DNA of 64,000 nucleotides from Muricea muricata (Eukaryota; Cnidaria; Anthozoa; Malacalcyonacea; Plexauridae). Made by a program: the position numbers and the translations under genes. The notes below the pieces were generated by a model, which saw nothing but the letters and a program-made list of their open reading frames with translations, searched no databases and had not been told where the DNA came from. The stretch covers positions 5,807,195 through 5,871,194 of the forward strand of contig OY979721.1 of the NCBI GenBank assembly GCA_963855995.1, given 5' to 3'. Of the stretch, positions 1-51,335 are shown piece after piece (the stretch's first letter is position 1; each line of letters starts with the position of its first letter).

Positions 1-107
1 TGAGCGAAATGACATGTTGAAATGAGAAACCTATAACTTGGTTGTAAACTGAAAAGAAACGATCTTAGAACCATCAAAATCACGTTTTAGGCGTTCTAGA
101 AGCGATT
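1..107 (+). repeat. Subrepeat 1 of the trimeric monomer
   Basis: First third of the monomer, 107 bp, starting TGAGCGAAATGACATG. Set column by column against the next two thirds it needs only one gap near its end. About 61 of 108 columns match subrepeat 2 and about 58-60 match subrepeat 3, where chance would give roughly a quarter. It carries most of the class-defining variation: the TGAGCG word itself (TGATAGG in class B, AGAGCAA in class C), the CACG/TGCG/CGTG/CGCG site at 81-84, and the TTCTAGAA palindrome. Confidence 0.85.
94..101. promoter_or_regulatory. Recurrent TTCTAGAA palindrome
   Basis: An 8-bp perfect palindrome present once in nearly every monomer. A TTTTAGAA variant occurs near 4,937, 11,718, 13,655, 33,360, 34,652 and 35,298. 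It contains an XbaI site, so a 323-bp ladder is expected on digestion. It also has the TTCnnGAA form of two inverted heat-shock-factor half-sites, but no third half-site lies at the right spacing on either side, so a regulatory role is only a possibility. Confidence 0.35.
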
Positions 108-215
108 TGAGCGTAAAAACATGCTCAAATAACCAACTTAAAATTGCCGTTTTAAATCGATCAGGGCGACGTTTTAGAGCTTAAAATGAGGTTTTCAGTG
201 CTAAAGTGAACGAGT
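108..215 (+). repeat. Subrepeat 2 of the trimeric monomer
   Basis: Second third, 108 bp, starting TGAGCGTAAAAACATGC. It contains the downstream arm of the inverted repeat and three GTTTT runs beginning at subrepeat positions 42, 64 and 84, about two helical turns apart. It matches subrepeat 3 at 61 of 108 columns with no gaps. Common variants are AATAACCAACTTAAAATTG versus AATCACCAACTAAAAATCG, CAGGGCGACG versus CAGAGCGACG or CAGGGCAACG, and GTGCTAAAG versus GTGCTAATG or GGGCAAAAG. Confidence 0.85.
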
Positions 216-323
216 TGAGCGCAATGATGTACTGCAATCACGGACCTAAAAGAGACTTTCTAAATGGAAATTGCAGAACTTAGCATGTCGGGAATCATGT
301 TTTCGTCGCTCAAACCATCGAGA
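216..323 (+). repeat. Subrepeat 3 of the trimeric monomer
   Basis: Last third, 108 bp, starting TGAGCGCAATGATGTACTG. It shares with the other two the TGAGCGNAA start, an A-rich stretch at columns 21-25, an ACNTANAA stretch near columns 29-36, and GTTTT at columns 84-88. Common variants are TACTGC versus TACAGC or TACGC (1 bp shorter), GGACCTAAAAGAGACTTTC versus GGACCTAACCCAGACCTTC, TTGCAGAAC versus TAGCAGAAG, and TTTTCGTCGCTC versus TTTTCGGCGCTC or TTTTCGGCACTC. Confidence 0.85.
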
Positions 324-426
324 TGAGCGAAATGACATGTTGAAATGAGAAACCTGTAACTTGGTTGTAAACTGAAAAGAAACGATCTTAGAACCATCAA
401 AATTGCGTTTTAAGCGTTCTAGAAGC

Positions 427-454
427 GATTTGAGCGTAAAAACATGCTCAAATC
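427..454. repeat. Inverted repeat, 9-bp arms, 10-base spacer
   Basis: GATTTGAGC at 427-435 and GCTCAAATC at 446-454 are exact reverse complements around the spacer GTAAAAACAT. The element recurs once per monomer at the junction of subrepeats 1 and 2. In monomers with AAATAACC the arms shorten to 8 bp (105-112 and 123-130 in the first unit). Arms are broken in a minority: GATTTAAGC in one class C subtype, GCTTAAATC near 25,640, GATCAAAT near 23,380, GCTCTAATC near 57,600. It could extrude as a cruciform or fold in a transcript. Whether it does anything is unknown, and none of the breaks noted is compensated on the other arm. Confidence 0.8.
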
Positions 455-3230
455 ACCAACTAAAAATTGCCGTTTTAAATCGATCAGGGCGACGTTTTAG
501 AGCTTAAAATGAGGTTTTCAGTGCTAAAGTGAACGAGTTGAGCGCAATGATTTACGCAATCACGGACTTAAAAGAGACCTTCTAAATGAAAATAGCAGAA
601 GTTAGCAAGTCGGGAATCATGTTTTCGGCGCTCAAACCATCGAGATGAGCGAAAAAACACGTCGACATTAGAAACCTATAAATTGCTTGTAGACTGAAAA
701 GAAACGATCTTAGAACCATCAAAATTGCGTTTTAAGCGTTCTAGAAGCGATTTGAGCGTAAAAACATGCTCAAATCACCAACTAAAAATTGCCGTTTTAA
801 ATCGATCAGGGCGACGTTTTAGAGCTTAAAATGAGGTTTTCAGGGCAAAAGTGAACGAGTTGAGCGCAATGATGTACTGCAATCACGGACCTAAAAGAGA
901 CTTTCTAAATGGAAATTGCAGAACTTAGCAAGTCGGGAATCATGTTTTCAGCGCTCAAACCATCGAGATGAGCGAAATGACATGTTGAAATGAGAAACCT
1001 ATAACTTGCTTGTAAACTGAAAAGAAACGATCTTAGAACCATCAAAATCACGTTTTAGGCGTTCTAGAAGCGATTTGAGCGTAAAAACATGCTCAAATCA
1101 CCAACTAAAAATCGCCGTTTTAAATCGATCAGAGCGACGTTTTAGAGCTTAAAATGAGGTTTTCATTGCTAAAGTGAACGAGTTGAGCGCAATGATGTAC
1201 TGCAATCACGGACCTAAAAGAGACTTTCTAAATGGAAATTGCAGAACTTAGCATGTCGGGAATCATGTTTTCGGCGGTCAAACCATCGACATGAGCGAAA
1301 GTACATGTTGAAATGAGAAACCTATAACTTGCTTGTAGACTGAAAAGAAACGATCTTAGAACCATAAAAATCGCGTTTTAAGCGTTCTAGAAGCGATTTG
1401 AGCGTAAAAACATGCTCAAATCACCAACTAAAAATCGCCGTTTTAAATCGATCAGGGCGACGTTTTAGAGCTTTAAATGAGGTTTTCAATGCTAAAGTGA
1501 ACGAGTTGAGCGCAATGATGTACTGCAATCACGGACCTAAAAGAGACTTTCTAAATGGAAATTGCAGAACTTAGCAAGTCGGGAATCATGTTTTCGGCGC
1601 TCAAACCATCGACATGAGCGAAATAACACGTTGACATGAGAAACCTATAACTTGCTTGTAGACTGAACAGAAACGATCTTAGAACCATCAAAATTGCGTT
1701 TTAAGCGTTCTAGAAGCGATTTGAGCGTAAAAACATGCTCAAATCACAAACTAAAAATTGCCGTTTTAAATCGATCAGGGCAACGTTTTAGAGCTTGAAA
1801 TGACGTTTTCAGTGCTAAAGTGAAAGAGTTGAGCGCAATGATGTACTGCAATCACGGACCTAAAAGAGACTTTCTAAATGGAAATTGCAGAACTTAGCAT
1901 GCCGGAAATCATGTTTTCGTCGCTCAAACCATCGAGATGAGCGAAATGACATGTTGAAATGAGAAACCTATAACTTGGTTGTAAACTGAAAAGAAACGAT
2001 CTTAGAACCATCAAAATCACGTTTTAGGCGTTCTAGAAGCGATTTGAGCGTAAAAACATGCTCAAATAACCAACTTAAAATTGCCGTTTTAAATCGATCA
2101 GGGCGACGTTTTAGAGCTTAAAATGAGGTTTTCAGTGCTAAAGTGAACGAGTTGAGCGCAATGATGTACTGCAATCACGGACCTAAAAGAGACTTTCTAA
2201 ATGGAAATTGCAGAACTTAGCAAGTCGGGAATCATGTTTTCGGCGCTCAAACCATCGACAAGAGCAAAATAACACGTTGACATTAAAAACCTATAACTTG
2301 CTTGTAGACTGAAAAGAAACGATCTTAGAACCATCAAAATTGCGTTTTAAGCCTTCTAGAAGCGATTTAAGCGTAAAAACATGCTCAAATCACCAACTAA
2401 AAATCGCCGTTTTAAATCGATCAGGGCGACGTTTTAGAGCTTAAAATGAAGTTTTCAGTGCTAAAGTGAACGAGTTGAGCGCAATGATGTACTGCAATCA
2501 CGGACCTAAAAGAGACTTTCTAAATGGAAATTGCAGAACTTAGCATGTCGGGAATCATGTTTTCGGCGCTCAAACCATCGAGATGATAGGAATGACATGT
2601 TGAAATGAGAAACCTATAACTTGGTTGTAAACTGAAAAGAAACGATCTTAGAACCATCAAAATCACGTTTTAGGCGTTCTAGAAGCGATTTGAGCGTAAA
2701 AACATGCTCAAATAACCAACTAAAAATTGCCGTTTTAAATCGATCAGGGCGACGTTTTAGAGCTTAAAATGAGGTTTTCAGTGCTAATGTGAACGAGTTG
2801 AGCGCAATGATGTACAGCAATCACGGACCTAAAAGAGACTTTCTAAATGGAAATAGCAGAACTTAGCAAGTCGGGAATAATGTTTTCGGCGCTCAAACCA
2901 TCGACAAGAGCAAAATAACACGTTGACATTAAAAACCTATAACTTGCTTGTAGACTGAAAAGAAACGATCTTAGAACAATCAAAATTGCGTTTTAAGCGT
3001 TCTAGAAGCGATTTGAGCGTAAAAACATGCTCAAATCACCAAACTAAAAATTGCCGTTTTAAATCGATCAGGGCAACGTTTTAGAGCTTGAAATGACGTT
3101 TTCAGTGCTAAAGTGAAAGAGTTGAGCGCAATGATGTACTGCAATGACGGACCTAAAAGAGACTTTCTAAATGGAAATTGCAGAACTTAGCATGTCGGGA
3201 ATCATGTTTTCGTCGCTCAAACCATCGAGA

Positions 3231-6200
3231 TGAGCGAAATGACATGTTGAAATGAGAAACCTATAACTTGGTTGTAAACTGAAAAGAAACGATCTTAGAA
3301 CCATCAAAATCACGTTTTAGGCGTTCTAGAAGCGATTTGAGCGTAAAAACATGCTCAAATAACCAACTTAAAATTGCCGTTTTAAATCGATCAGGGCGAC
3401 GTTTTAGAGCTTAAAATGAGGTTTTCAGTGCTAAAGTGAACGAGTTGAGCGCAATGATGTACTGCAATCACGGACCTAAAAGAGACTTTCTAAATGGAAA
3501 TTGCAGAACTTAGCAAGTCGGGAATCATGTTTTCGGCGCTCAAACCATCGACAAGAGCAAAATAACACGTTGACATTAAAAACCTATAACTTGCTTGTAG
3601 ACTGAAAAGAAACGATCTTAGAACCATCAAAATTGCGTTTTAAGCCTTCTAGAAGCGATTTAAGCGTAAAAACATGCTCAAATCACCAACTAAAAATCGC
3701 CGTTTTAAATCGATCAGGGCGACGTTTTAGAGCTTAAAATGAAGTTTTCAGTGCTAAAGTGAACGAGTTGAGCGCAATGATGTACTGCAATCACGGACCT
3801 AAAAGAGACTTTCTAAATGGAAATTGCAGAACTTAGCATGTCGGGAATCATGTTTTCGGCGCTCAAACCATCGAGATGAGAGGAATGACATGTTGAAATG
3901 AGAAACCTATAACTTGGTTGTAAACTGAAAAGAAACGATCTTAGAACCATCAAAATCACGTTTTAGGCGTTCTAGAAGCGATTTGAGCGTAAAAACATGC
4001 TCAAATAACCAACTAAAAATTGCCGTTTTAAATCGATCAGGGCGACGTTTTAGAGCTTAAAACGAGGTTTTCAGTGCTAATGTGAACGAGTTGAGCGCAA
4101 TGATGTACAGCAATCACGGACCTAAAAGAGACTTTCTAAATGGAAATAGCAGAACTTAGCAAGTCGGGAATCATGTTTTCGGCGCTCAAACCATCGACAA
4201 GAGCAAAATAACACGTTGACATTAAAAACCTATAACTTGCTTGTAGACTGAAAAGAAACGATCTTAAAACAATCAAAATTGCGTTTTAAGCGTTCTAGAA
4301 GCGATTTGAGCGTAAAAACATGCTCAAATCACCAACTAAAAATCGCCGTTTTAAATCGATCAGGGCGACGTTTTAGAGCTTAAAATGAGGTTTTCAGGGC
4401 AAAAGTGAACGAGTTGAGCGCAATGATGTACTGCAATCACGGACCTAACCCAGACCTTCTAAATGGAAATAGCAGAAGTTAGCAAGTCGGGAATCATGTT
4501 TTCGGCGCTCAAACCATCGAGATGAGCGAAAAAACACGTTGACATGAGAAACCTATAACTTGCTTGTAGACTGAAAAGAAACGATCTTAGAACCATCAAA
4601 ATTGCGTTTTAAGCGTTCTAGAAGCGATTTGAGCGTAAAAACATGCTCAAATCACCAACTAAAAATTGCCGTTTTAAATCGATCAGGGCGACGTTTTAGA
4701 GCTTAAAATGAGGTTTTCAGTGCTAAAGTGAACGAGTTGAGCGCAATGATGTACGCAATCACGGACTTAAAAGAGACCTTCTAAATGAAAATAGCAGAAG
4801 TTAGCAAGTTGGGAATCATGTTTTCGGCGCTCAAACCATCGAGATGAGCGAAAAAACACGTTGACATTAGAAACCTATAAATTGCTTGTAGACTGAAAAG
4901 AAACGATCTTAGAACCATCAAAATTGCGTTTTAAGCGTTTTAGAAGCGATTTGAGCGTAAAAACATGCTCAAATCACCAACTAAAAATTGCCGTTTTAAA
5001 TCGATCAGGGCGACGTTTTAGAGCTTAGAATGAGGTTTTCAGGGCAAAAGTGAACGAGTTGAGCGCAATGATGTACTGCAATCACGGACCTAAAAGAGAC
5101 TTTCTAAATGGAAATTTGCAGAACTTAGCAAGTCGGGAATCATGTTTTCGGCGCTCAAACCATCGAGATGAGCGAAATGACATGTTGAAATGAGAAACCT
5201 ATAACTTGGTTGTAAACTGAAAAGAAACGATCTTAGAACCATCAAAATCACGTTTTAGGCGTTCTAGAAGCGATTTGAGCGTAAAAACATGCTCAAATAA
5301 CCAACTTAAAATTGCCGTTTTAAATCGATCAGGGCGACGTTTTAGAGCTTAAAATGAGGTTTTCAGTGCTAAAGTGAACGAGTTGAGCGCAATGATGTAC
5401 TGCAATCACGGACCTAAAAGAGACTTTCTAAATGGAAATTGCAGAACTTAGCAAGTCGGGAATCATGTTTTCGGCGCTCAAACCATCGAGAAGAGCAAAA
5501 TAACACGTTGACATTAAAAACCTATAACTTGCTTGTAGACTGAAAAGAAACGATCTTAGAACCATCAAAATTGCGTTTTAAGCCTTCTAGAAGCGATTTA
5601 AGCGTAAAAACATGCTCAAATCACCAACTAAAAATCGCCGTTTTAAATCGATCAGGGCGACGTTTTAGAGCTTAAAATGAAGTTTTCAGTGCTAAAGTGA
5701 ACGAGTTGAGCGCAATGATGTACTGCAATCACGGACCTAAAAGAGACTTTCTAAATGGAAATTGCAGAACTTAGCATGTCGGGAATCATGTTTTCGGCGC
5801 TCAAACCATCGAGATGATAGGAATGACATGTTGAAATGAGAAACCTATAACTTGGTTGTAAACTGAAAAGAAACGATCTTAGAACCATCAAAATCACGTT
5901 TTAGGCGTTCTAGAAGCGATTTGAGCGTAAAAACATGCTCAAATAACCAACTAAAAATTGCCGTTTTAAATCGATCAGGGCGACGTTTTAGAGCTTAAAA
6001 TGAGGTTTTCAGTGCTAATGTGAACGAGTTGAGCGCAATGATGTACAGCAATCACGGACCTAAAAGAGACTTTCTAAATGGAAATAGCAGAACTTAGCAA
6101 GTCGGGAATCATGTTTTCGGCGCTCAAACCATCGACAAGAGCAAAATAACACGTTGACATTAAAAACCTATAACTTGCTTGTAGACTGAAAAGAAACGAT

Positions 6201-6690
6201 CTTAGAACAATCAAAATTGCGTTTTAAGCGTTCTAGAAGCGATTTGAGCGTAAAAACATGCTCAAATCACCAACTAAAAATCGCCGTTTTAAATCGATCA
6301 GGGCGACGTTTTAGAGCTTAAAATGAGGTTTTCAGGGCAAAAGTGAACGAGTTGAGCGCAATGATGTACTGCAATCACGGACCTAACCCAGACCTTCTAA
6401 ATGGAAATAGCAGAAGTTAGCAAGTCGGGAATCATGTTTTCGGCGCTCAAACCATCGAGATGAGCGAAAAAACACGTTGACATGAGAAACCTATAACTTG
6501 CTTGTAGACTGAAAAGAAACGATCTTAGAACCATCAAAATTGCGTTTTAAGCGTTCTAGAAGCGATTTGAGCGTAAAAACATGCTCAAATCACCAACTAA
6601 AAATTGCCGTTTTAAATCGATCAGGGCGACGTTTTAGAGCTTAAAATGAGGTTTTCAGTGCTAAAGTGAACGAGTTGAGCGCAATGATGT
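3231..6690 (+). repeat. 6-monomer tandem duplication inside copy 1
   Basis: 3,231-5,168 (A C B C D E) is followed by 5,169 onward (A C B C D) at a spacing of 1,938 bp. CTAACCCAGACC recurs near 4,444 and 6,382. The same nested structure is present in copy 2 at about 10,013-13,472, so the 6-mer duplication predates the larger one. A shorter A-C-B-C module begins at 1,938, 3,231 and 5,169, showing that this tetramer is the basic block here. Confidence 0.75.
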
Positions 6691-7480
6691 ACTGCAATCA
6701 CGGACCTAAAAGAGACTTTCTAAATGGAAATTGCAGAACTTAGCATGTCGGGAATCATGTTTTCGTCGCTCAAACCATCGAGATGAGCGAAATGACATGT
6801 TGAAATGAGAAACCTGTAACTTGGTTGTAAACTGAAAAGAAACGATCTTAGAACCATCAAAATTGCGTTTTAGGCGTTCTAGAAGCGATTTGAGCGTAAA
6901 AACATGCTCAAATAACCAACTTAAAATTGCCGTTTTAAATCGATCAGGGCGACGTTTTAGAGCTTAAAATGAGGTTTTCAGTGCTAAAGTGAACGAGTTG
7001 AGCGCAATGATGTACTGCAATCACGGACCTAAAAGAGACTTTCTAAATGGAAATTGCAGAACTTAGCATGTCGGGAATCATGTTTTCGGCGCTCAAACCA
7101 TCGAGATGATAGGAATGACATGTTGAAATGAGAAACCTATAACTTGGTTGTAAACTGAAAAGAAACGATCTTAGAACCATCAAAATCACGTTTTAGGCGT
7201 TCTAGAAGCGATTTGAGCGTAAAAACATGCTCAAATAACCAACTAAAAATTGCCGTTTTAAATCGATCAGGGCGACGTTTTAGAGCTTAAAATGAGGTTT
7301 TCAGTGCTAATGTGAACGAGTTGAGCGCAATGATGTACTGCAATCACGGACCTAACCCAGACCTTCTAAATGGAAATAGCAGAAGTTAGCAAGTCGGGAA
7401 TCATGTTTTCGGCGCTCAAACCATCGAGATGAGCGAAAAAACACGTTGACATGAGAAACCTATAACTTGCTTGTAGACTG

Positions 7481-10400
7481 AAAAGAAACGATCTTAGAAC
7501 CATCAAAATTGCGTTTTAAGCGTTCTAGAAGCGATTTGAGCGTAAAAACATGCTCAAATCACCAACTAAAAATTGCCGTTTTAAATCGATCAGGGCGACG
7601 TTTTAGAGCTTAAAATGAGGTTTTCCGTGTTAAAGTGAACGAGTTGAGCGCAATGATTTACGCAATCACGGACTTAAAAGAGACCTTCTAAATGAAAATA
7701 GCAGAAGTTAGCAAGTCGGGAATCATGTTTTCGGCGCTCAAACCATCGAGATGAGCGAAAAAACACGTCGACATTAGAAACCTATAAATTGCTTGTAGAC
7801 TGAAAAGAAACGATCTTAGAACCATCAAAATTGCGTTTTAAGCGTTCTAGAAGCGATTTGAGCGTAAAAACATGCTCAAATGACCAACTAAAAATTGCCG
7901 TTTTAAATCGATCAGGGCGACGTTTTAGAGCTTAAAATGAGGTTTTCAGGGCAAAAGTGAACGAGTTGAGCGCAATGATGTACTGCAATCACGGACCTAA
8001 AAGAGACTTTCTAAATGGAAATTGCAGAACTTAGCAAGTCGGGAATCATGTTTTCAGCGCTCAAACCATCGAGATGAGCGAAATGACATGTTGAAATGAG
8101 AAACCTATAACTTGCTTGTAAACTGAAAAGAAACGATCTTAGAACCATCAAAATCACGTTTTAGGCGTTCTAGAAGCGATTTGAGCGTAAAAACATGCTG
8201 AAATCACCAACTAAAAATCGCCGTTTTAAATCGATCAGAGCGACGTTTTAGAGCTTAAAATGAGGTTTTCATTGCTAAAGTGAACGAGTTGAGCGCAATG
8301 ATGTACTGCAATCACGGACCTAAAAGAGACTTTCTAAATGGAAATTGCAGAACTTAGCAAGTCGGGAATCATGTTTTCGGCGCTCAAACCATCGAGATGA
8401 GCGAAATAACACGTTGACATGAGAAACCTATAACTTGCTTGTAGACTGAACAGAAACGATCTTAGAACCATCAAAATTGCGTTTTAAGCGTTCTAGAAGC
8501 GATTTGAGCGTAAAAACATGCTCAAATCACAAACTAAAAATTGCCGTTTTAAATCGATCAGGGCAACGTTTTAGAGCTTGAAATGACGTTTTCGGTGCTA
8601 AAGTGAAAGAGTTGAGCGCAATGATGTACTGCAATCACGGACCTAAAAGAGACTTTCTAAATGGAAATTGCAGAACTTAGCATGCCGGGAATCATGTTTT
8701 CGTCGCTCAAACCATCGAGATGAGCGAAATGACATGTTGAAATGAGAAACCTATAACTTGGTTGTAAACTGAAAAGAAACGATCTTAGAACCATCAAAAT
8801 CACGTTTTAGGCGTTCTAGAAGCGATTTGAGCGTAAAAACATGCTCAAATAACCAACTTAAAATTGCCGTTTTAAATCGATCAGGGCGACGTTTTAGAGC
8901 TTAAAATGAGGTTTTCAGTGCTAAAGTGAACGAGTTGAGCGCAATGATGTACTGCAATCACGGACCTAAAAGAGACTTTCTAAATGGAAATTGCAGAACT
9001 TAGCAAGTCGGGAATCATGTTTTCGGCGCTCAAACCATCGACAAGAGCAAAATAACACGTTGACATTAAAAACCTATAACTTGCTTGTAGACTGAAAAGA
9101 AACGATCTTAGAACCATCAAAATTGCGTTTTAAGCCTTCTAGAAGCGATTTAAGCGTAAAAACATGCTCAAATCACCAACTAAAAATCGCCGTTTTAAAT
9201 CGATCAGGGCGACGTTTTAGAGCTTAAAATGAAGTTTTCAGTGCTAAAGTGAACGAGTTGAGCGCAATGATGTACTGCAATCACGGACCTAAAAGAGACT
9301 TTCTAAATGGAAATTGCAGAACTTAGCATGTCGGGAATCATGTTTTCGGCGCTCAAACCATCGAGATGATAGGAATGACATGTTGAAATGAGAAACCTAT
9401 AACTTGGTTGTAAACTGAAAAGAAACGATCTTAGAACCATCAAAATCACGTTTTAGGCGTTCTAGAAGCGATTTGAGCGTAAAAACATGCTCAAATAACC
9501 AACTAAAAATTGCCGTTTTAAATCGATCAGGGCGACGTTTTAGAGCTTAAAATGAGGTTTTCAGTGCTAATGTGAACGAGTTGAGCGCAATGATGTACAG
9601 CAATCACGGACCTAAAAGAGACTTTCTAAATGGAAATAGCAGAACTTAGCAAGTCGGGAATAATGTTTTCGGCGCTCAAACCATCGACAAGAGCAAAATA
9701 ACACGTTGACATTAAAAACCTATAACTTGCTTGTAGACTGAAAAGAAACGATCTTAGAACAATCAAAATTGCGTTTTAAGCGTTCTAGAAGCGATTTGAG
9801 CGTAAAAACATGCTCAAATCACAAACTAAAAATTGCCGTTTTAAATCGATCAGGGCAACGTTTTAGAGCTTGAAATGACGTTTTCAGTGCTAAAGTGAAA
9901 GAGTTGAGCGCAATGATGTACTGCAATGACGGACCTAAAAGAGACTTTCTAAATGGAAATTGCAGAACTTAGCATGTCGGGAATCATGTTTTCGTCGCTC
10001 AAACCATCGAGATGAGCGAAATGACATGTTGAAATGAGAAACCTATAACTTGGTTGTAAACTGAAAAGAAACGATCTTAGAACCATCAAAATCACGTTTT
10101 AGGCGTTCTAGAAGCGATTTGAGCGTAAAAACATGCTCAAATAACCAACTTAAAATTGCCGTTTTAAATCGATCAAGGCGACGTTTTAGAGCTTAAAATG
10201 AGGTTTTCAGTGCTAAAGTGAACGAGTTGAGCGCAATGATGTACTGCAATCACGGACCTAAAAGAGACTTTCTAAATGGAAATTGCAGAACTTAGCAAGT
10301 CGGGAATCATGTTTTCGGCGCTCAAACCATCGACAAGAGCAAAATAACACGTTGACATTAAAAACCTATAACTTGCTTGTAGACTGAAAAGAAACGATCT

Positions 10401-13400
10401 TAGAACCATCAAAATTGCGTTTTAAGCCTTCTAGAAGCGATTTAAGCGTAAAAACATGCTCAAATCACCAACTAAAAATCGCCGTTTTAAATCGATCAGG
10501 GCGACGTTTTAGAGCTTAAAATGAAGTTTTCAGTGCTAAAGTGAACGAGTTGAGCGCAATGATGTACTGCAATCACGGACCTAAAAGAGACTTTCTAAAT
10601 GGAAATTGCAGAACTTAGCATGTCGGGAATCATGTTTTCGGCGCTCAAACCATCGAGATGAGAGGAATGACATGTTGAAATGAGAAACCTATAACTTGGT
10701 TGTAAACTGAAAAGAAACGATCTTAGAACCATCAAAATCACGTTTTAGGCGTTCTAGAAGCGATTTGAGCGTAAAAACATGCTCAAATAACCAACTAAAA
10801 ATTGCCGTTTTAAATCGATCAGGGCGACGTTTTAGAGCTTAAAATGAGGTTTTCAGTGCTAATGTGAACGAGTTGAGCGCAATGATGTACAGCAATCACG
10901 GACCTAAAAGAGACTTTCTAAATGGAAATAGCAGAACTTAGCAAGTCGGGAATCATGTTTTCGGCGCTCAAACCATCGACAAGAGCAAAATAACACGTTG
11001 ACATTAAAAACCTATAACTTGCTTGTAGACTGAAAAGAAACGATCTTAAAACAATCAAAATTGCGTTTTAAGCGTTCTAGAAGCGATTTGAGCGTAAAAA
11101 CATGCTCAAATCACCAACTAAAAATCGCCGTTTTAAATCGATCAGGGCGACGTTTTAGAGCTTAAAATGAGGTTTTCAGGGCAAAAGTGAACGAGTTGAG
11201 CGCAATGATGTACTGCAATCACGGACCTAACCCAGACCTTCTAAATGGAAATAGCAGAAGTTAGCAAGTCGGGAATCATGTTTTCGGCGCTCAAACCATC
11301 GAGATGAGCGAAAAAACACGTTGACATGAGAAACCTATAACTTGCTTGTAGACTGAAAAGAAACGATCTTAGAACCATCAAAATTGCGTTTTAAGCGTTC
11401 TAGAAGCGATTTGAGCGTAAAAACATGCTCAAATCACCAACTAAAAATTGCCGTTTTAAATCGATCAGGGCGACGTTTTAGAGCTTAAAATGAGGTTTTC
11501 AGTGCTAAAGTGAACGAGTTGAGCGCAATGATGTACGCAATCACGGACTTAAAAGAGACCTTCTAAATGAAAATAGCAGAAGTTAGCAAGTTGGGAATCA
11601 TGTTTTCGGCGCTCAAACCATCGAGATGAGCGAAAAAACACGTTGACATTAGAAACCTATAAATTGCTTGTAGACTGAAAAGAAACGATCTTAGAACCAT
11701 CAAAATTGCGTTTTAAGCGTTTTAGAAGCGATTTGAGCGTAAAAACATGCTCAAATCACCAACTAAAAATTGCCGTTTTAAATCGATCAGGGCGACGTTT
11801 TAGAGCTTAGAATGAGGTTTTCAGGGCAAAAGTGAACGAGTTGAGCGCAATGATGTACTGCAATCACGGACCTAAAAGAGACTTTCTAAATGGAAATTTG
11901 CAGAACTTAGCAAGTCGGGAATCATGTTTTCGGCGCTCAAACCATCGAGATGAGCGAAATGACATGTTGAAATGAGAAACCTATAACTTGGTTGTAAACT
12001 GAAAAGAAACGATCTTAGAACCATCAAAATCACGTTTTAGGCGTTCTAGAAGCGATTTGAGCGTAAAAACATGCTCAAATAACCAACTTAAAATTGCCGT
12101 TTTAAATCGATCAGGGCGACGTTTTAGAGCTTAAAATGAGGTTTTCAGTGCTAAAGTGAACGAGTTGAGCGCAATGATGTACTGCAATCACGGACCTAAA
12201 AGAGACTTTCTAAATGGAAATTGCAGAACTTAGCAAGTCGGGAATCATGTTTTCGGCGCTCAAACCATCGAGAAGAGCAAAATAACACGTTGACATTAAA
12301 AACCTATAACTTGCTTGTAGACTGAAAAGAAACGATCTTAGAACCATCAAAATTGCGTTTTAAGCCTTCTAGAAGCGATTTAAGCGTAAAAACATGCTCA
12401 AATCACCAACTAAAAATCGCCGTTTTAAATCGATCAGGGCGACGTTTTAGAGCTTAAAAAGAATTTTTCAGTGCTAAAGTGAACGAGTTGAGCGCAATGA
12501 TGTACTGCAATCACGGACCTAAAAGAGACTTTCTAAATGGAAATTGCAGAACTTAGCATGTCGGGAATCATGTTTTCGGCGCTCAAACCATCGAGATGAT
12601 AGGAATGACATGTTGAAATGAGAAACCTATAACTTGGTTGTAAACTGAAAAGAAACGATCTTAGAACCATCAAAATCACGTTTTAGGCGTTCTAGAAGCG
12701 ATTTGAGCGTAAAAACATGCTCAAATAACCAACTAAAAATTGCCGTTTTAAATCGATCAGGGCGACGTTTTAGAGCTTAAAATGAGGTTTTCAGTGCTAA
12801 TGTGAACGAGTTGAGCGCAATGATGTACAGCAATCACGGACCTAAAAGAGACTTTCTAAATGGAAATAGCAGAACTTAGCAAGTCGGGAATCATGTTTTC
12901 GGCGCTCAAACCATCGACAAGAGCAAAATAACACGTTGACATTAAAAACCTATAACTTGCTTGTAGACTGAAAAGAAACGATCTTAGAACAATCAAAATT
13001 GCGTTTTAAGCGTTCTAGAAGCGATTTGAGCGTAAAAACATGCTCAAATCACCAACTAAAAATCGCCGTTTTAAATCGATCAGGGCGACGTTTTAGAGCT
13101 TAAAATAAGGTTTTCAGGGCAAAAGTGAACGAGTTGAGCGCAATGATGTACTGCAATCACGGACCTAACCCAGACCTTCTAAATGGAAATAGCAGAAGTT
13201 AGCAAGTCGGGAATCATGTTTTCGGCGCTCAAACCATCGAGATGAGCGAAAAAACACGTTGACATGAGAAACCTATAACTTGCTTGTAGACTGAAAAGAA
13301 ACGATCTTAGAACCATCAAAATTGCGTTTTAAGCGTTCTAGAAGCGATTTGAGCGTAAAAACATCCTCAAATCACCAACTAAAAATTGCCGTTTTAAATC

Positions 13401-13472
13401 GATCAGGGCGACGTTTTAGAGCTTAAAATGAGGTTTTCAGTGCTAAAGTGAACGAGTTGAGCGCAATGATGT
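7481..13472 (+). repeat. Higher-order unit, copy 2 (one monomer shorter)
   Basis: Second copy of 375-6,690. Monomer starts are 7,752, 8,075, 8,398, 8,721, 9,044, 9,367, 9,690, 10,013, 10,336, 10,659, 10,982, 11,305, 11,627, 11,951, 12,274, 12,597, 12,920 and 13,243, in class order E A G A C B C A C B C D E A C B C D. Relative to copy 1 it lacks the F monomer between 8,397 and 8,398 and one inserted base near 9,820. It has private changes such as AAAAAGAATTTTTCAG near 12,458. The two copies otherwise differ at only scattered bases, so the duplication is recent. Confidence 0.85.
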
Positions 13473-16400
13473 ACGCAATCACGGACTTAAAAGAGACCTT
13501 CTAAATGAAAATAGCAGAAGTTAGCAAGTTGGGAATCATGTTTTCGGCGCTCAAACCATCGAGATGAGCGAAAAAACACGTTGACATTAGAAACCTATAA
13601 ATTGCTTGTAGACTGAAAAGAAACGATCTTAGAACCATCAAAATTGCGTTTTAAGCGTTTTAGAAGCGATTTGAGCGTAAAAACATGCTCAAATCACCAA
13701 CTAAAAATTGCCGTTTTAAATCGATCAGGGCGACGTTTTAGAGCTTAGAATGAGGTTTTCAGGGCAAAAGTGAACGAGTTGAGCGCAATGATGTACTGCA
13801 ATCACGGACCTAAAAGAGACTTTCTAAATGGAAATTTGCTGAACTTAGCAAGTCGGGAATCATGTTTTCGGCGCTCAAACCATCGAGATGAGCGAAATGA
13901 CATGTTGAAATGAGAAACCTATAACTTGGTTGTAAACTGAAAAGAAACGATCTTAGAACCATCAAAATCACGTTTTAGGCGTTCTAGAAGCGATTTGAGC
14001 GTAAAAACATGCTCAAATCACCAACTAAAAATCGCCGTTTTAAATCGATCAGAGCGACGTTTTAGAGCTTAAAATGAGGTTTTCATTGCTAAAGTGAACG
14101 AGTTGAGCGCAATGATGTACTGCAATCACGGACCTAAAAGAGACTTTCTAAATGGAAATTGCAGAACTTAGCATGTCGGGAATCATGTTTTCGGCGGTCA
14201 AACCATCGACATGAGCGAAAGTACATGTTGAAACGAGAAACCTATAACTTGCTTGTAGACTGAAAAGAAACGATCTTAGAACCATAAAAATCGCGTTTTA
14301 AGCGTTCTAGAAGCGATTTGAGCGTAAAAACATGCTCAAATCACCAACTAAAAATCGCCGTTTTAAATCGATCAGGGCGACGTTCTAGAGCTTTAAATGA
14401 GGTTTTCAGTGCTAAAGTGAACGAGTTGAGCGCAATGATGTACTGCAATCACGGACCTAAAAGAGACTTTCTAAATGGAAATTGCAGAACTTAGCAAGTC
14501 GGGAATCATGTTTTCGGCGATCAAACTATCGACATGAGTGAAATAACACGTTGACATGAGAAACCTATAACTTGCTTGTAGACTGAACAGAAACGATCTT
14601 AGAACCATCAAAATTGCGTTTTATGCGTTCTAGAAGCGATTTGAGCGTAAAAACATGCTCAAATCACAAACTAAAAATTGCCATTTTAAATCGATCAGGG
14701 CAACGTTTTAGAGCTTGAAATGACGTTTTCAGTGCTAAAGTGAAAGAGTTGAGCGCAATGATGTACTGCAATCACGGACCTAAAAGACACTTTCTAAATG
14801 GAAATTGCAGAACTTAGCATGTCGGGAATCATGTTTTCGTCGCTCAAACCATCGAGATGAGCGAAATGACATGTTGAAATGAGAAACCTATAACTTGGTT
14901 GTAAACTGAAAAGAAACGATCTTAGAACCATCAAAATCACGTTTTAGGCGTTCTAGAAGCGATTTGAGCGTAAAAACATGCTCAAATAACCAACTTAAAA
15001 TTGCCGTTTTAAATCGATCAGGGCGACGTTTTAGAGCTTAAAATGAGGTTTTCAGTGCTAAAGTGAACGAGTTGAGCGCAATGATGTACTGCAATCACGG
15101 ACCTAAAAGAGACTTTCTAAATGGAAATTGCAGAACTTAGCATGTCGGGAATCATGTTTTCGGCGCTCAAACCATCGAGATGATAGGAATGACATGTTGA
15201 AATGAGAAACCTATAACTTAGTTGTAAACTGAAAAGAAACGATCTTAGAACCATCAAAATAGCGTTTTAAGCGTTCTAGAAGCGATTTGAGCGTAAAAAC
15301 ATGCTCAAATCACCCACTAAAAATCGCCGTTTTAAATCGATCAGGGCGACGTTTTAGAGCTTAAAATGAAGTTTTCAGTGCTAAAGTGAACGAGTTGAGC
15401 GCAATGATGTACTGCAATCACGGATTTAAAAGAGACCTTCTAAATGGAAATAGCAGAAGTTAGCAAGTCGGGAATCATGTTTTCTGGCGCTCAAACCATC
15501 GAGATGAGCGAAATAACACGTTGACATGAGAAACCTATAACTTGCTTGTAAACTGAAAAGAAACGATCTTAGAACCATCAAAATTGCGTTTTAAGCGTTC
15601 TAGAAGCGATTTGAGCGTAAAAACATGCTCAAATCACCAACTAAAAATCGCCGTTTTAAATCGATCAGGGCGACGTTTTAGAGCTTAAAATGAGGTTTTC
15701 AGATCAAAAGTGAACGAGTTGAGCGATATGATGTACTGCAATCACGGACCTAACCCAGACCTTCTAAATGGAAATAGCAGAAGTTAGCAAGTTGGGAATC
15801 ATGTTTTCGGCGCTCAAACCATCGAGATGAGCGAAAAACACACGTTGACATGAGAAACCTATAACTTGCTTGTAGACTGAAAAGAAACGATCTTAGAACC
15901 ATCAAAATTGCGTTTTAAGCGTTCTAGAAGCGATTTGAGCGTAAAAACATGCTCAAATCACCAACTAAAATCGCCGTTATAAATCGATCAGGGCGACGTT
16001 TTAGAGCTTGAAATGAGGTTTTCAGTGCTAAAGTGAACGAGTTGAGCGCAATGATGTACTGCAATCACGGACTTAAAAGAGACCTTCTAAATGAAAATAG
16101 CAGAAGTTAGCAAGTCGGGAATCATGTTTTCGGCGCTCAAACTATCCAGATGAGCGAAATAAAACGTTGACATGAGAAACCTATAACTTGCTTGTAGACT
16201 GAACAGAAACGATCTTAGAACCATCAAAATTGCGTTTTAAGCGTTCTAGAAGCGATTTGAGCGTAAAAACATGCTCAAATCACCAACTAAAAATCGCCGT
16301 TTTAAATCGATCAGGGCGACGTTTTAGAGCTTGAAATGAGGTTTTCAGTGCTAAAGTGAACGAGTTGAGCGCAATGATGTACTGCAATCACGGACTTAAA

Positions 16401-16730
16401 AGAGACCTTCTAAATGAAAATAGCAGAAGTTAGCAAGTCGGGAATCATGTTTTCGGCGCTCAAACCATCGAGATGATAGGAATGACATGTTGAAATGAGA
16501 AACCTATAACTTGGTTGTAAACTGAAAGGAAACGATCTTAGAACCATCAAAATCACGTTTTAGGCGTTCTAGAAGCGATTTGAGCGTAAAAACATGCTCA
16601 AACAACCAACTAAAAATCGCCGTTTTAAATCGATCAGGGCGACGTTTTAGAGCTTAAAATGAGGTTTTCAGTGCTAATGTGAACGAGTTGAGCGCAATGA
16701 TGTACAGCAATCACGGACCTAAAAGAGACT
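13472..16730 (+). repeat. Satellite: repeat of early module, then diverse monomers
   Basis: 13,472-13,889 continues a 6-mer spacing (1,938 bp) from 11,534. About 13,889-15,180 (A F G A) matches 969-2,260 at a spacing of 12,920 bp, exactly 40 monomers, and here the F monomer (14,212-14,534) is retained. From 15,181 to 16,730 monomers are less regular: an extra base in TTTTCTGGCGC near 15,484, GAGCGATATG near 15,723, an extra base in GAAAAACACACG near 15,831, and one A fewer in CTAAAATCGCC near 15,966. No gene or other element is visible. Confidence 0.75.
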
Positions 16731-19700
16731 TTCTAAATGGAAATTGCAGAACTTAGCATGTCGGGAATCATGTTTTCGGCGCTCAAACCATCGAGATGAC
16801 AGGAATGACATGTTGAAATGAGAAACCTATAACTTAGTTGTAAACTGAAAAGAAACGATCTTAGAACCATCAAAATCACGTTTTAGGCGTTCTAGAAGCG
16901 ATTTGAGCGTAAAAACATGCTCAAATAACCAACTAAAAATTGCCGTTTTAAATCGATCAGGGCGACGTTTTAGAGCTTAAAATGAGGTTTTCAGTGCTAA
17001 TGTGAACGAGTTGAGCGCAATGATGTACTGCAATCACGGACCTAAAAGAGACTTTCTAAATGGAAATAGCAGAACTTAGCAAGTCGGGAATCATGTTTTC
17101 GGCGCTCAAACCATCGACAAGAGCAAAATAACACGTTGACATTAAAAACCTATAACTTGCTTGTAGACTGAAAAGAAACGATCTTAGAACCATCAAAATT
17201 GCGTTTTAAGCGTTCTAGAAGCGATTTGAGCGTAAAAACATGCTCAAATCACCAACTAAAAATCGCCGTTTTAAATCGATCAGGGCGACGTTTTAGAGCT
17301 TGAAATGAGGTTTTCAGTGCTAAAGTGAACGAGTTGAGCGCAATGATGTACTGCAATCACGGACTTAAAAGAGACCTTCTAAATGAAAATAGCAGAAGTT
17401 AGCAAGTCGGGAATCATGTTTTCGGCGCTCAAACCATCGAGATGATAGGAATGACATGTTGAAATGAGAAACGTATAACTTGGTTGTAAACTGAAAGGAA
17501 ACGATCTTAGAACCATCAAAATCACGTTTTAGGCGTTCTAGAAGCGATTTGAGCGTAAAAACATGCTCAAACAACCAACTAAAAATCGCCGTTTTAAATC
17601 GATCAGGGCGACGTTTTAGAGCTTAAAATGAGGTTTTCAGTGCTAATGTGAACGAGTTGAGCGCAATGATGTACAGCAATCACGGACCTAAAAGAGACTT
17701 TCTAAATGGAAATAGCAGAACTTAGCAAGTCGGGAATCATGTTTTCGGCGCTCAAACCATCGACAAGAGCAAAATAACACGTTGACATTAAAAACCTATA
17801 ACTTGCTTGTAGACTGAAAAGAAACGATCTTAGAACAATCAAAATTGCGTTTTAAGCGTTCTAGAAGCGATTTGAGCGTAAAAACATGCTCAAATCACCA
17901 ACTAAAAATCGCCGTTTTAAATCGATCAGGGCGACGTTTTAGAGCTTAAAATGAGGCTTTCAGGGCAAAAGTGAACGAGTTGAGCGCAATGATGTACTGC
18001 AATCACGGACCTAACCCAGACCTTCTAAATGGAAATAGCAGAAGTTAGCAAGTCGGGAATCATGTTTTCGGCGCTCAAACCATCGAGATGAGCGAAATGA
18101 CATGTTGAAATGAGAAACCTATAACTTGGTTGTAAACTGAAAAGAAACGATCTTAGAACCATCAAAATCACGTTTTAGGCGTTCTAGAAGCGATTTGAGC
18201 GTAAAAACATGCTCAAATCACCAACTAAAAATCGCCGTTTTAAATCGATCAGAGCGACGTTTTAGAGCTTAAAATGAGGTTTTCATTGCTAAAGTGAACG
18301 AGTTGAGCGCAATGATGTACTGCAATCACGGACCTAAAAGAGACTTTCTAAATGGAAATTGCAGAACTTAGCATGTCGGGAATCATGTTTTCGGCGCTCA
18401 AACCATCGAGATGACAGGAATGACATGTTGAAATGAGAAACCTATAACTTAGTTGTAAACTGAAAAGAAACGATCTTAGAACCATCAAAATCACGTTTTA
18501 GGCGTTCTAGAAGCGATTTGAGCGTAAAAACATGCTCAAATAACCAACTAAAAATTGCCGTTTTAAATCGATCAGGGCGACGTTTTAGAGCTTAAAATGA
18601 GGTTTTCAGTGCTAATGTGAACGAGTTGAGCGCAATGATGTACTGCAATCACGGACCTAAAAGAGACTTTCTAAATGGAAATAGCAGAACTTAGCAAGTC
18701 GGGAATCATGTTTTCGGCGCTCAAACCATCGACAAGAGCAAAATAACACGTTGACATTAAAAACCTATAACTTGCTTGTAGACTGAAAAGAAACGATCTT
18801 AGAACCATCAAAATTGCGTTTTAAGCGTTCTAGAAGCGATTTGAGCGTAAAAACATGCTCAAATCACCAACTAAAAATCGCCGTTTTAAATCGATCAGGG
18901 CGACGTTTTAGAGCTTGAAATGAGGTTTTCAGTGCTAAAGTGAACGAGTTGAGCGCAATGATGTACTGCAATCACGGACTTAAAAGAGACCTTCTAAATG
19001 AAAATAGCAGAAGTTAGCAAGTCGGGAATCATGTTTTCGGCGCTCAAACCATCGAGATGATAGGAATGACATGTTGAAATGAGAAACGTATAACTTGGTT
19101 GTAAACTGAAAGGAAACGATCTTAGAACCATCAAAATCACGTTTTAGGCGTTCTAGAAGCGATTTGAGCGTAAAAACATGCTCAAACAACCAACTAAAAA
19201 TCGCCGTTTTAAATCGATCAGGGCGACGTTTTAGAGCTTAAAATGAGGTTTTCAGTGCTAATGTGAACGAGTTGAGCGCAATGATGTACAGCAATCACGG
19301 ACCTAAAAGAGACTTTCTAAATGGAAATAGCAGAACTTAGCAAGTCGGGAATCATGTTTTCGGCGCTCAAACCATCGACAAGAGCAAAATAACACGTTGA
19401 CATTAAAAACCTATAACTTGCTTGTAGACTGAAAAGAAACGATCTTAGAACAATCAAAATTGCGTTTTAAGCGTTCTAGAAGCGATTTGAGCGTAAAAAC
19501 ATGCTCAAATCACCAACTAAAAATCGCCGTTTTAAATCGATCAGGGCGACGTTTTAGAGCTTAAAATGAGGCTTTCAGGGCAAAAGTGAACGAGTTGAGC
19601 GCAATGATGTACTGCAATCACGGACCTAACCCAGACCTTCTAAATGGAAATAGCAGAAGTTAGCAAGTCGGGAATCATGTTTTCGGCGCTCAAACCATCG

Positions 19701-19960
19701 AGATGAGCGAAATGACATGTTGAAATGAGAAACCTATAACTTGGTTGTAAACTGAAAAGAAACGATCTTAGAACCATCAAAATCACGTTTTAGGCGTTCT
19801 AGAAGCGATTTGAGCGTAAAAACATGCTCAAATCACCAACTAAAAATCGCCGTTTTAAATCGATCAGAGCGACGTTTTAGAGCTTAAAATGAGGTTTTCA
19901 TTGCTAAAGTGAACGAGTTGAGCGCAATGATGTACTGCAATCACGGACCTAAAAGAGACT
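16730..19960 (+). repeat. 5-monomer tandem duplication (1,615 bp)
   Basis: About 16,730-18,344 and 18,345-19,960 are near-identical. Markers at exactly 1,615 bp include ATGACAGGAATG (16,797/18,412), GAGAAACGTATAAC (near 17,466/19,081) and TGAGGCTTTCAGGGC (near 17,951/19,566). Breakpoints lie in the conserved last third, between about 16,715-16,800, 18,330-18,395 and 19,945-20,010. Open frames of 69 codons at 17,365-17,574 and 18,980-19,189 on the minus strand are the same stretch duplicated and are not genes. Confidence 0.85.
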
Positions 19961-20026
19961 TTCTAAATGGAAATTGCAGAACTTAGCATGTCGGGAATCA
20001 TGTTTTTGGCGGTCAAACCATCGACA

Positions 20027-20672
20027 TGAGCGAAAGTACATGTTGAAATGAGAAACCTATAACTTGCTTGTAGACTGAAAAGAAACGATCTTAGAACCAT
20101 AAAAATCGCGTTTTAAGCGTTCTAGAAGCGATTTGAGCGTAAAAACATGCTCAAATCACCAACTAAAAATCGCCGTTTTAAATCGATGAGGGCGACGTTT
20201 TAGAGCTTTAAATGAGGTTTTCAGTGCTAAAGTGAACGAGTTGAGCGCAATGATGTACTGCAATCACGGACCTAAAAGAGACTTTCTAAATGGAAATTGC
20301 AGAACTTAGCAAGTCGGGAATCATGTTTTCGGCGCTCAAACCATCGACATGAGCGAAAGTACATGTTGAAATGAGAAACCTATAACTTGCTTGTAGACTG
20401 AAAAGAAACGATCTTAGAACCATAAAAATCGCGTTTTAAGCGTTCTAGAAGCGATTTGAGCGTAAAAACATGCTCAAATCACCAACTAAAAATCGCCGTT
20501 TTAAATCGATCAGGGCGACGTTTTAGAGCTTTAAATGAGGTTTTCAGTGCTAAAGTGAACGAGTTGAGCGCAATGATGTACTGCAATCACGGACCTAAAA
20601 GAGACTTTCTAAATGGAAATTGCAGAACTTAGCAAGTCGGGAATCATGTTTTCGGCGCTCAAACCATCGACA
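20027..20672 (+). repeat. Single-monomer tandem duplication (class F)
   Basis: Two adjacent class F monomers begin at 20,027 and 20,350, both with TGAGCGAAAGTACATG and CCATAAAAATCGCG. They differ at very few bases, for example ATCGATGAGGG near 20,183 against the usual ATCGATCAGGG. Elsewhere in the window F is usually followed directly by G, so this is the clearest one-unit duplication. Confidence 0.75.
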
Positions 20673-22280
20673 TGAGCGAAATAACACGTTGACATGAGAA
20701 ACCTATAACTTGCTTGTAGACTGAACAGAAACGATCTTAGAACCATCAAAATTGCGTTTTAAGCGTTCTAGAAGCGATTTGAGCGTAAAAACATGCTCAA
20801 ATCACCAAACTAAAAATTGCCGTTTTAAATCGATCAGGGCAACGTTTTAGAGCTTGAAATGACGTTTTCAGTGCTAAAGTGAAAGAGTTGAGCGCAATGA
20901 TGTACTGCAATCACGGACCTAAAAGAGACTTTCTAAATGGAAATTGCAGAACTTAGCATGTCGGGAATCATGTTTTCGTCGCTCAAACCATCGAGATGAG
21001 CGAAATGACATGTTGAAATGAGAAATCTATAACTTGGTTGTAAACTGAAAAGAAACGATCTTAGAACCATCAAAATCACGTTTTAGGCGTTCTAGAAGCG
21101 ATTTGAGCGTAAAAACATGCTCAAATCACCAACTAAAAATCGCCGTTTTAAATCGATCAGAGCGACGTTTTAGAGCTTAAAATGAGGTTTTCATTGCTAA
21201 AGTGAACGAGTTGAGCGCAATGATGTACTGCAATCACGGACCTAAAAGAGACTTTCTAAATGGAAATTGCAGAACTTAGCATGTCGGGAATCATGTTTTC
21301 GTCGCTCAAACCATCGAGATGAGCGAAATGACATGTTGAAATGAGAAACCTATAACTTGGTTGTAAACTGAAAAGAAACGATCTTAGAACCATCAAAATC
21401 ACGTTTTAGGCGTTCTAGAAGCGATTTGAGCGTAAAAACATGCTCAAATAACCAACTAAAAATTGCCGTTTTAAATCGATCAGGGCGACGTTTTAGAGCT
21501 TAAAATGAGGTTTTCAGTGCTAATGTGAACGAGTTGAGCGCAATGATGTACTGCAATCACGGACCTAAAAGAGACTTTCTAAATGGAAATAGCAGAACTT
21601 AGCAAGTCGGGAATCATGTTTTCGGCGCTCAAACCATCGACAAGAGCAAAATAACACGTTGACATTAAAAACCTATGACTTGCTTGTAGACTGAAAAGAA
21701 ACGATCTTAGAACCATCAAAATTGCGTTTTAAGCGTTCTAGAAGCGATTTGCGCGTAAAAACATGCTTAAATCACCAACTAAAAATCGCCGTTTTAAATC
21801 GATCAGGGCGACGTTTTAGAGCTTAAAATGATGTTTTCAGTGCTAAAGTGAACGAGTTGAGCGCAATGATGTATTGCAATCACGGACTTAAAAGAGACCT
21901 TCTAAATGGAAATAGCAGAAGTTAGCAAGTCGGGAATCATGTTTTTGGCGCTCAAGCCATCGAGATGAGCGAAATAACACGTTGACAAGAGAAACCTATA
22001 ACTTGCTTGTAAACTGAAAAGAAACGATCTTAGAACCATCAAAATCGTGTTTTAGGCGTTCTAGAAGCGATTTGAGCGTAAAAACATGCTCAAATAACCA
22101 ACTTAAAATTGCCGTTTTAAATCGATCAGGGCGACGTTTTAGAGCTTAAAATGAGGTTTTCAGTGCTAAAGTGAACGAGTTGAGCGCAATGATGTACTGC
22201 AATCACGGACCTAAAAGAGACTTTCTAAATGGAAATTGCAGAACTTAGCCAGTCGGGAATCATGTTTTCGGCGCTCAAAC
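20673..22280 (+). repeat. Satellite monomers without local tandem duplication
   Basis: Five monomers starting with G at 20,673 (with an extra A in CACCAAACTAAAAATTG near 20,807), then A, A, C and H. Private changes include GAAATCTATAAC near 21,024, CCTATGACTTGC near 21,674, and GATTTGCGCG with GCTTAAATC near 21,748-21,773, which breaks the inverted repeat. No gene is visible. Confidence 0.7.
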
Positions 22281-25200: not shown

Positions 25201-26445
25201 AATGACATGTTGAAATGAGAAACCTATAACTTGGTTGTAAACTGAAAAGAAACGATCTTAGAACCATCAAAATCACGTTTTAGGCGTTCTAGAAGCGATT
25301 TGAGCGTAAAAACATGCTCAAATAACCAACTAAAAATTGCCGTTTTAGATCGATCAGGGCGACGTTTTAGAGCTTAAAATGAGGTTTTCAGTGCTAACGT
25401 GAACGAGTTGAACGCAATGATGTACAGCAATCACGGACCTAAAAGAGACTTTCTAAATGGAAATAGCAGAACTTAGCAAGTCGGGAATCATGTTTTCGGC
25501 GCTCAAACCATCGACAAGAGCAAAATAACACGTTGACATTAAAAACCTATAACTTGCTTGTAGACTGAAAAGAAACGATCTTAGAACAATCAAAATTGCG
25601 TTTTAAGCGTTCTAGAAGCGATTTGAGCGTAAAAACATGCTTAAATCACCAACTAAAAATCGCCGTTTTAAATCGATCAGGGCGACGTTTTAGAGCTTAA
25701 AATGAGGTTTTCAGGGCAAAAGTGAACGAGTTGAGCGCAATGATGTACTGCAATCACGGACCTAACCCAGACCTTCTAAATGGAAATAGCAGAAGTTAGC
25801 AAGTCGGGAATCATGTTTTCGGCGCTCAAACCATCGAGATGAGCGAAAAAACACGTTGACATGAGAAACCTATAAGTTGCTTGTAGACTGAAAAGAAACG
25901 ATCTTAGAACCATCAAAATTGCGTTTTAAGCGTTCTAGAACCGATTTGAGCGTAAAAACATGCTCAAGTCACCAACTAAAAATTGCCGTTTTAAATCGAT
26001 CAGGGCGACGTTTTAGAGCTTAAAATGAGGTTTTCAGTGCTAAAGTGAACGAGTTGAGCGCAATGATGTACGCAATCACGGACTTAAAAGAGACCTTCTA
26101 AATGAAAATAGCAGAAGTTAGCAAGTCGGGAATCATGTTTTCGGCGCTCAAACCATCGAGATGAGCGAAAAAACACGTTGACATTAGAAACCTATAAATT
26201 GCTTGTAGACTGAAAAGAAACGATCTTAGAACCATCAAAATTGCGTTTTAAGCGTTCTAGAAGCGATTTGAGCGTAAAAACATGCTCAAATCACCAACTA
26301 AAAATTGCCGTTTTAAATCGATCAGGGCGACGTTTTAGAGCTTAAAATGAGGTTTTCAGGGCAAAAGTGAACGAGTTGAGCGCAATGATGTACTGCAATC
26401 ACGGACCTAAAAGAGACTTTCTAAATGGAAATTGCAGAACTTAGC
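22280..26445 (+). repeat. 7-monomer tandem duplication (2,259-2,261 bp)
   Basis: About 22,280-24,185 recurs as about 24,540-26,445. Markers at a 2,259-bp spacing include TTGAACGCAATG (near 23,149/25,408), CCTATAAGTTGC (near 23,611/25,870) and the TACGC monomers. The spacing is 2 bp short of seven monomers because of one missing base in TACGC (about 23,812) and one in TTAGAAGTCGG (about 24,506). Copies differ by scattered changes such as CTCACACCATCG near 22,921 and ATGATCAAATAACC near 23,378. Confidence 0.8.
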
Positions 26446-51100: not shown

Positions 51101-51335
51101 GTTTTAGGCGTTCTAGAAGCGATTTGAGCGTAAAAACATGCTCAAATAACCAACTAAAAATTGCCGTTTTAAATCGATCAGGGCGACGTTTTAGAGCTTA
51201 AAATGAGGTTTTCAGTGCTAATGTGAACGAGTTGAGCGCAATGATGTACTGCAATCACGGACCTAAAAGAGACTTTCTAGATGGAAATAGCAGAACTTAG
51301 CAAGTCGGGAATCATGTTTTCGGCGCTCAAACCAT
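47415..51335 (+). repeat. 6-monomer tandem duplication (1,938 bp)
   Basis: About 47,415-49,352 and 49,353-51,335 match. Markers 1,938 bp apart: CGATCAGTGCGACG (48,595/50,533), TCTAGAAACGATTTG (near 48,853/50,791) and TTTCTAGATGGAAATAG (near 49,336/51,274). The copies differ at single bases such as AAATTTCCG near 48,898 against AAATTGCCG. It overlaps the right end of the 8-mer duplication, so this event is the later one there. Confidence 0.85.

Follow-up and report, generated by a model that had tools for sequence, protein, structure and literature searches.

In the mouse major satellite, diverged shorter units together make up a longer monomer, which is amplified whole. The sturgeon HindIII and wedge sole satellites are likewise longer monomers composed of diverged shorter units that are amplified as a whole (PMC5615363), and both the formation of higher-order repeats (HORs) by joint amplification of adjacent monomers and the building of monomers from shorter repeats are described (PMC5615363, PMC8122249). 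In human alpha-satellite HORs, several diverged units form a block and are amplified jointly, the blocks being far more alike than the units, and chromosome-specific subfamilies exist (PMC5615363). In the leaf beetle Chrysolina carnifex, 211-bp monomers form 633-bp trimers (PMC8122249).

The 323-bp satellite described here, from a probable octocoral, has the same hierarchical higher-order-repeat build, which is already known from other satellite DNAs, to which it adds a member. It resembles human alpha-satellite both in the amplification of a block of diverged units and in its chromosome-specific subfamilies, but the unit is 108 bp long here against about 170 bp there, the block holds three units, whose register is the same in all nine of the contigs read apart from C9, the thirds of the block are only 43–62% alike, and there is no excess of CENP-B boxes. 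With the sturgeon and wedge sole satellites, found in other hosts, it shares this organisation. As in C. carnifex, the amplified form is a trimer of a basic satellite unit; however, monomers, dimers and trimers coexist in that beetle (PMC8122249), whereas here we saw no single 108-bp arrays among the sequences read, and the unit on C9 is shortened.

The window, by which we mean the whole stretch of 64,000 nucleotides analysed (C6:5,807,195-5,871,194, on a contig of 16.98 Mb in a genome of 453 Mb in 74 contigs), is a satellite array with a 323-bp monomer over positions 1..64000 of the + strand, as found by Tandem Repeats Finder and monomer parsing. We parsed 198 monomers over positions 1-63,937, all in a single orientation, of which 179 are exactly 323 bp long, 11 are 322, 7 are 324 and one is 310 bp, with a mean identity to the consensus of 96.2%. 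The 310-bp copy (44894-45203) is the sole clearly short monomer and also has the lowest consensus identity, 92.6%. Tandem Repeats Finder reports the period of 323 with 93% matches and, in addition, a period of 108 over positions 1-63,761 (592.4 copies, 57% matches). The long head-to-tail arrays and the non-coding unit mark this as satellite DNA: the 323-bp unit has stop codons in all six frames and its longest open run is 49 codons, and a coding origin of the unit was rejected. Rfam returned no match at gathering scores in window 1-20,000, plasmid and phage records none to window 1-1000, and six repeat strings of 21 to 24 letters matched no open-access paper.

Within the first monomer the three thirds occupy positions 1..107 (T1, 107 bp), 108..215 (T2, 108 bp) and 216..323 (T3, 108 bp), all on the + strand. 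An earlier, sequence-only reading had placed TGAGCG at 1, 108, 216 and 324, and all four positions were verified (window 1-323). Each third opens with a copy of the shared box TGAGCGNAA on the + strand, as that reading had also proposed: at 1..9 in T1 (the TGAGCGAAA form, kept in 106 of the 198 monomers and gone in the other 92), at 108..116 in T2 (the TGAGCGTAA form, in 182/198) and at 216..224 in T3 (the TGAGCGCAA form, in 189/198). GTTTT, expected at columns 84-88, is present in all three thirds, at 84..88, 191..195 and 299..303 (+). The pair identities of 55–57% claimed for an alignment with a terminal gap stood for T2/T3 (61/108 = 56.5%), and were slightly lower for T1/T2 (56/107 = 52.3%) and the remaining pair (58/107 = 54.2%); the 42 of 108 columns said to be identical across all three thirds were reproduced. 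With the gap moved to after column 99, the pairs reach 57.0 (T1/T2), 57.9 and 56.5%, and 46 columns are triple-identical.

These values are far from what chance gives. In 5,000 dinucleotide shuffles with the terminal gap, pair identity averaged 27.4% (maximum 37.0%), in agreement with the 25–28% per pair expected beforehand, and triple-identical columns numbered 9.1 ± 2.6 (maximum 20) against the 42 observed, so that the shuffled control named in the earlier reading comes out in its favour. When the best gap position was allowed in each of 500 shuffles, triple columns averaged 11.3 (maximum 21; observed 46). For the consensus thirds, the gapped pair scores have z = 6.5, 5.1 and 7.5, reached by 0 of 1,000 shuffles, and a three-way MAFFT alignment contains 43 triple columns against a mean of 17.8 and a maximum of 28 in 60 shuffles. 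Gapped percent identity by itself is not informative, since shuffled T1/T2 pairs already average 58.5% over their aligned columns; the discriminating measures are alignment scores and near-ungapped column counts. In the window autocorrelation, for lags up to 4,000 without multiples of 323, the top lags are 215 (0.472) and 108 (0.469) over an all-lag mean of 0.269, so the diagonal predicted at 108 is borne out, and the second, predicted at 216, lies at 215. The thirds are homologous far beyond chance, and the 323-bp monomer is confirmed as an old trimer in which the copies of a 108-bp unit have diverged.

Could the 108-bp periodicity instead be a functional spacing, of protein sites or through nucleosome phasing, laid over unrelated sequence? 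Triple-identical columns are indeed less variable within the window (2.3% vs 5.0% and 3.7%, P = 0.005), and the monomer carries a 10.8-bp W/S wave, both of which would suit such a spacing. Slow-mutating columns would, however, give the same picture, so lower variability does not prove function. When chromosomes are compared, the difference is only borderline (4.4% vs 6.4%, P = 0.054), the longest run of triple-identical columns, six, is not unusual (P = 0.20), and the 42–46 identical columns are scattered along the entire unit and keep one register with a single gap; the shuffle controls come close to refuting this reading, and we hold it to be extremely improbable. The wave has a power of 20.4 at 10.8 bp in the 323-bp consensus, against a maximum of 9.5 in 120 flanking windows, largely because of the threefold repetition. 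Single thirds peak at 10.8–11.0 bp, but of 460 flanking windows 6, 2 and 52, respectively, do as well, and 2 or 6 of the 460 match the masked majority unit; this background includes L011, itself with ~0.7 kb of satellite. At columns where the thirds differ, the W/S class showed no extra preservation (45/142, permutation P 0.62).

A related proposal, for which the 10.8-bp wave is the evidence, is that a trimer, and not a dimer or tetramer, was fixed since 3 x 108 bp has the length of two nucleosome repeats (~162 bp each, an assumed value), with some ten AT/GC-wave turns per unit. If this were true, the amplification unit in this early-branching animal would have been dictated by the chromatin geometry of its centromere. 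The proposal is at odds with the 266-bp unit on C9, and we consider it very improbable.

Symmetry and finer structure were examined on the same sequences. Dyad symmetry of the ancestral 108-bp unit beat all 500 shuffles only with arbitrarily filled letters and vanished with N columns (P 0.69, 0.78), and it was rejected. T1 matched the reverse complement of T2 with P 0.01, the other two pairs of thirds giving 0.55 and 0.30. Half against half, the 108-bp unit showed no finer sub-repeat (P = 0.30); its best circular offset is 42 (P = 0.018), obtained with the arbitrary letters filled in, and we claim no finer repeat from it. The 323-bp consensus does not align significantly with its own reverse complement in local alignment (P 0.17), has a mild excess of short inverted repeats, with 10 six-letter hits, several of them from one overlapping arm (shuffle mean 3.9, maximum 15), and in DNA folding is marginally more stable than its shuffles (-39.6 vs -33.4 ± 3.5).

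How old is the trimer? A FastTree analysis of 36 thirds, representing 12 arrays on 10 contigs, each by its consensus or by a single monomer (C6core_left and C6inv being left out), yields a T1 clade with support 0.958 and a T3 clade with 0.993, T2 forming the remainder and C9_T2 being poorly placed (0.229). Between arrays, same-position thirds average 86–87% identity and different-position thirds 52–54%. Since the thirds group by position in the trimer and not by chromosome, the trimer had one origin and was fixed before the chromosome subfamilies diverged. This clustering across 10 contigs, together with the uniform 323-bp length of the window monomers, upholds the earlier claim that the trimer is the unit of amplification. 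Triple columns number 31–37 in the diverged arrays of C11, C12 and C15 against 42–47 in C6, C8, C10, C13, C14 and C16, as is expected if the thirds drift apart without mutual homogenisation.

The consensuses of C6, C8, C10, C13 and C14 (built from 3 monomers on C13, 5 on C14 and 7 on C8) have thirds that are 53–62% identical and about equidistant, while the trimer consensuses are 94–97.5% alike between these contigs. Blocks are thus far more alike than their diverged units, as in a higher-order repeat, monomers being 96.2% identical to the consensus. Such equidistance alongside alike trimers is also what we would see if the trimer had been captured from a pre-existing array of already diverged 108-bp monomers, as in a classic higher-order repeat, and not made by triplicating one unit. 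New variants fit this too, not copying other thirds beyond the mutation spectrum: singletons match another third in 27 of 65 cases (26.1 expected). Variants in 2–5 copies do so in 20/40 (16.4), those in 6–19 copies in 8/19 (8.7) and those in at least 20 copies in 11/21 (7.6). Counted per copy, 928 of 1,795 variant copies (51.7%) carry another third's letter, against 38.6% under equal mutation, an excess that might reflect exchange among the thirds; per variant and with the observed spectrum it is small or absent, and exchange finds no clear support. T1 holds 16 of the 29 variants found in at least 20 window copies; it also has the fewest single-copy variants (23, vs 39 and 31 in the other thirds).

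Against capture stands the whole-genome search with a 107-base majority sequence, built from the thirds with C9 and C12b omitted, which found no monomeric 108-bp array among the best 40 of 1,678 candidates scored. Its 42 matches, at identities of at most 82%, lie on C3, C6, C10 and C13. On C10 (5.832-5.840 Mb) successive matches are 323 to 1,290 bp apart, in multiples of ~323, and two matches on C6 directly precede another, like neighbouring thirds. A 108-bp profile run over seven C6 loci gave, beyond the satellite stretches of L011 and L029, a single weak match (L028, E 0.063). We give capture an even chance. The homology of the thirds bears out the origin from a ~108-bp repeat put forward in the sequence-only reading; triplication of a single unit is indistinguishable from the joint amplification of three neighbouring, already diverged units.

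A further, irregular level of repetition lies above the trimer. Adjacent window monomers are 93.8% alike, against 94.1–95.2% for monomers 2–40 apart, and neighbours of the same type are rarer than expected (21/197 vs 37.8). The monomer types stand in non-random order (A to B in 26/73), with local block duplications. There are 68 runs of at least three consecutive monomers at 98.5% identity or more, the longest comprising 15 consecutive monomers at 99.8% identity and an offset of 21 monomers, and no single HOR period was seen across the window.

On C6, which begins with CCCTAA repeats, each of the 22 places sampled from 5.13 to 6.83 Mb contains the satellite, two of them together with a retrotransposon, and there was no match at 4.0, 4.8, 6.90, 7.0 and 8.0 Mb. 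A lone piece of ~0.7 kb lies within 10 kb at 5.105 Mb. Identity to the window consensus is 87–93% in single matches at 5.13–5.22 Mb, 90% on average at 5.25 Mb and 96–97% at 5.35–6.70 Mb, so that a more diverged left edge adjoins a homogeneous core; from 6.70 Mb on, the satellite strand is mostly reversed.

The array harbours a non-LTR retrotransposon at L017 7383-10000 (C6 from 5,607,382, truncated where the sequence read stops) and at L018 4459-8424 (C6:5,704,458-5,708,423); it has an RVT_1 domain (E 1.2e-35) and an endonuclease domain, and contains GVEQNPGP, which we take to be a 2A-like motif. The two copies, 97,076 bp apart, have a common left junction and are 99.8% identical over 2,676 bp, and so were probably copied along with the array. 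In the left flank, several frames of L011 (1704-8581) adjoin the array, one with a weak Transposase_21 match (24.8 bits, below the cut-off of 28.6); another frame beside the array has no Pfam match. Mobile-element sequence both beside and inside the array, and the knowledge that transposable-element parts seed other satellites (PMC5615363), would be in keeping with growth of the satellite from tandem subrepeats within such an element. The LINE inside the array, however, shares only a 19-bp stretch with the monomer, near its junction (E 0.002), and the stops in all six frames argue against a coding part, though only against that, which leaves this origin improbable in our view.

Relatives of the satellite occur on 11 of the 16 chromosome-sized contigs, namely C3, C6 and C8–C16; the three largest of the 16 measure 124, 72 and 61 Mb, and the others range from 19.2 to 11.6 Mb. 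The genome search was positive on C6, C8, C10, C13 and C14, with at least 75 matches (best 40 of 4,336 candidates scored), and a search of C13 gave at least 116 (best 18 of 2,172 candidates scored). On C3, read only over its masked first 200 bases, relatives lie at 29.26–29.81 Mb of 60.7 Mb. Of 20 blind 400-bp probes, six matched: C9 at 79% over 213 bp, C11 at 85.5%, C12 at 85% (two points), C15 at 88% and C16 at 92.8%. The 14 without a match fell on C4 (2), C5 (2), C7 (3), C9 (2), C11 (2), and C12, C15 and C16 (1 each), the probe set covering C4, C5, C7, C9, C11, C12, C15 and C16. C9, C11, C15 and C16 match at one place each, and on C3, C6, C8, C10, C13 and C14 matches are spread over 0.26 to 1.7 Mb; as the searches scored just the best candidates, any contig may carry a further block. 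The relative at C9:7,000,000-7,001,399 (L086, L097), 79% identical, has a ~266-bp unit, which lacks parts of T2 and T3, and a 530-bp double period, so an intact trimer is not needed everywhere.

C74 (19,292 bp) reads as the mitochondrial genome, its first 3 kb containing nad1, followed on the minus strand by cob and then nad6, an octocoral gene order. The sizes of the large contigs are similar to the three-large pattern of the sea fan Gorgonia ventalina, with 16 chromosomes of which the first five measure 79.8, 39.8, 33.1, 19.0 and 18.9 Mb (PMC12856254); the assembly of Eunicella cavolini has 490 Mb in 17 pseudomolecules (PMC12759274). The mitochondrial contig and the contig sizes make an octocoral likely.

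Because the unit is non-coding and its relatives occupy internal positions on 11 of 16 chromosome-sized contigs, the satellite is a candidate for a centromeric or pericentromeric role; judging by position and distribution alone, the array most likely belongs to the centromere or to the heterochromatin beside it. Alternatively, the blocks may be non-centromeric heterochromatin, with the true centromere elsewhere, as the five large contigs without a demonstrated copy (C1 and C2 unprobed; C4, C5 and C7 negative at 7 points) would allow. The internal position on 11 contigs, the spread of matches over 0.26 to 1.7 Mb on six of these, the contig-specific subfamilies and, on C6, the diverged left edge beside a homogeneous core make this somewhat unlikely. 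The monomer was also compared with NTTCGNNNNANNCGGGN, which we take to be the CENP-B box motif: the best site has 6 of 9 fixed letters, and 297 of 300 shuffles reach at least 6, i.e. there is no excess, and an alpha-satellite-like type with a CENP-B box was rejected.

We propose the following history. A 108-bp tandem unit would have existed first. Three adjacent units, identical or already diverged, then became the single 323-bp amplification unit, by a route that may have been either of those discussed above. In the arrays sampled, the trimer has come to many chromosomes and been homogenised within each into chromosome-specific subfamilies, and multi-trimer blocks continue to be duplicated locally, probably by unequal exchange or a similar process, giving the irregular third level of repetition. 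To this account as a whole, a fixed trimer of an old 108-bp unit that spread, formed subfamilies, underwent local block duplication and most likely serves as DNA of the centromere or flanking heterochromatin, we assign a probability of roughly 0.8.

In the titles and opening abstract lines of the open-access papers found on cnidarian or coral centromere satellites, PMC9005458 among them, no octocoral centromere satellite is described. The present array would provide a candidate for one, together with part of its ancestry, and the satellite sequences can be used for FISH and CENP-A tests. Its nested levels of 108 bp, 323 bp and multi-monomer blocks, along with the chromosome subfamilies, resemble the evolution of alpha-satellite, here in an early-branching animal.
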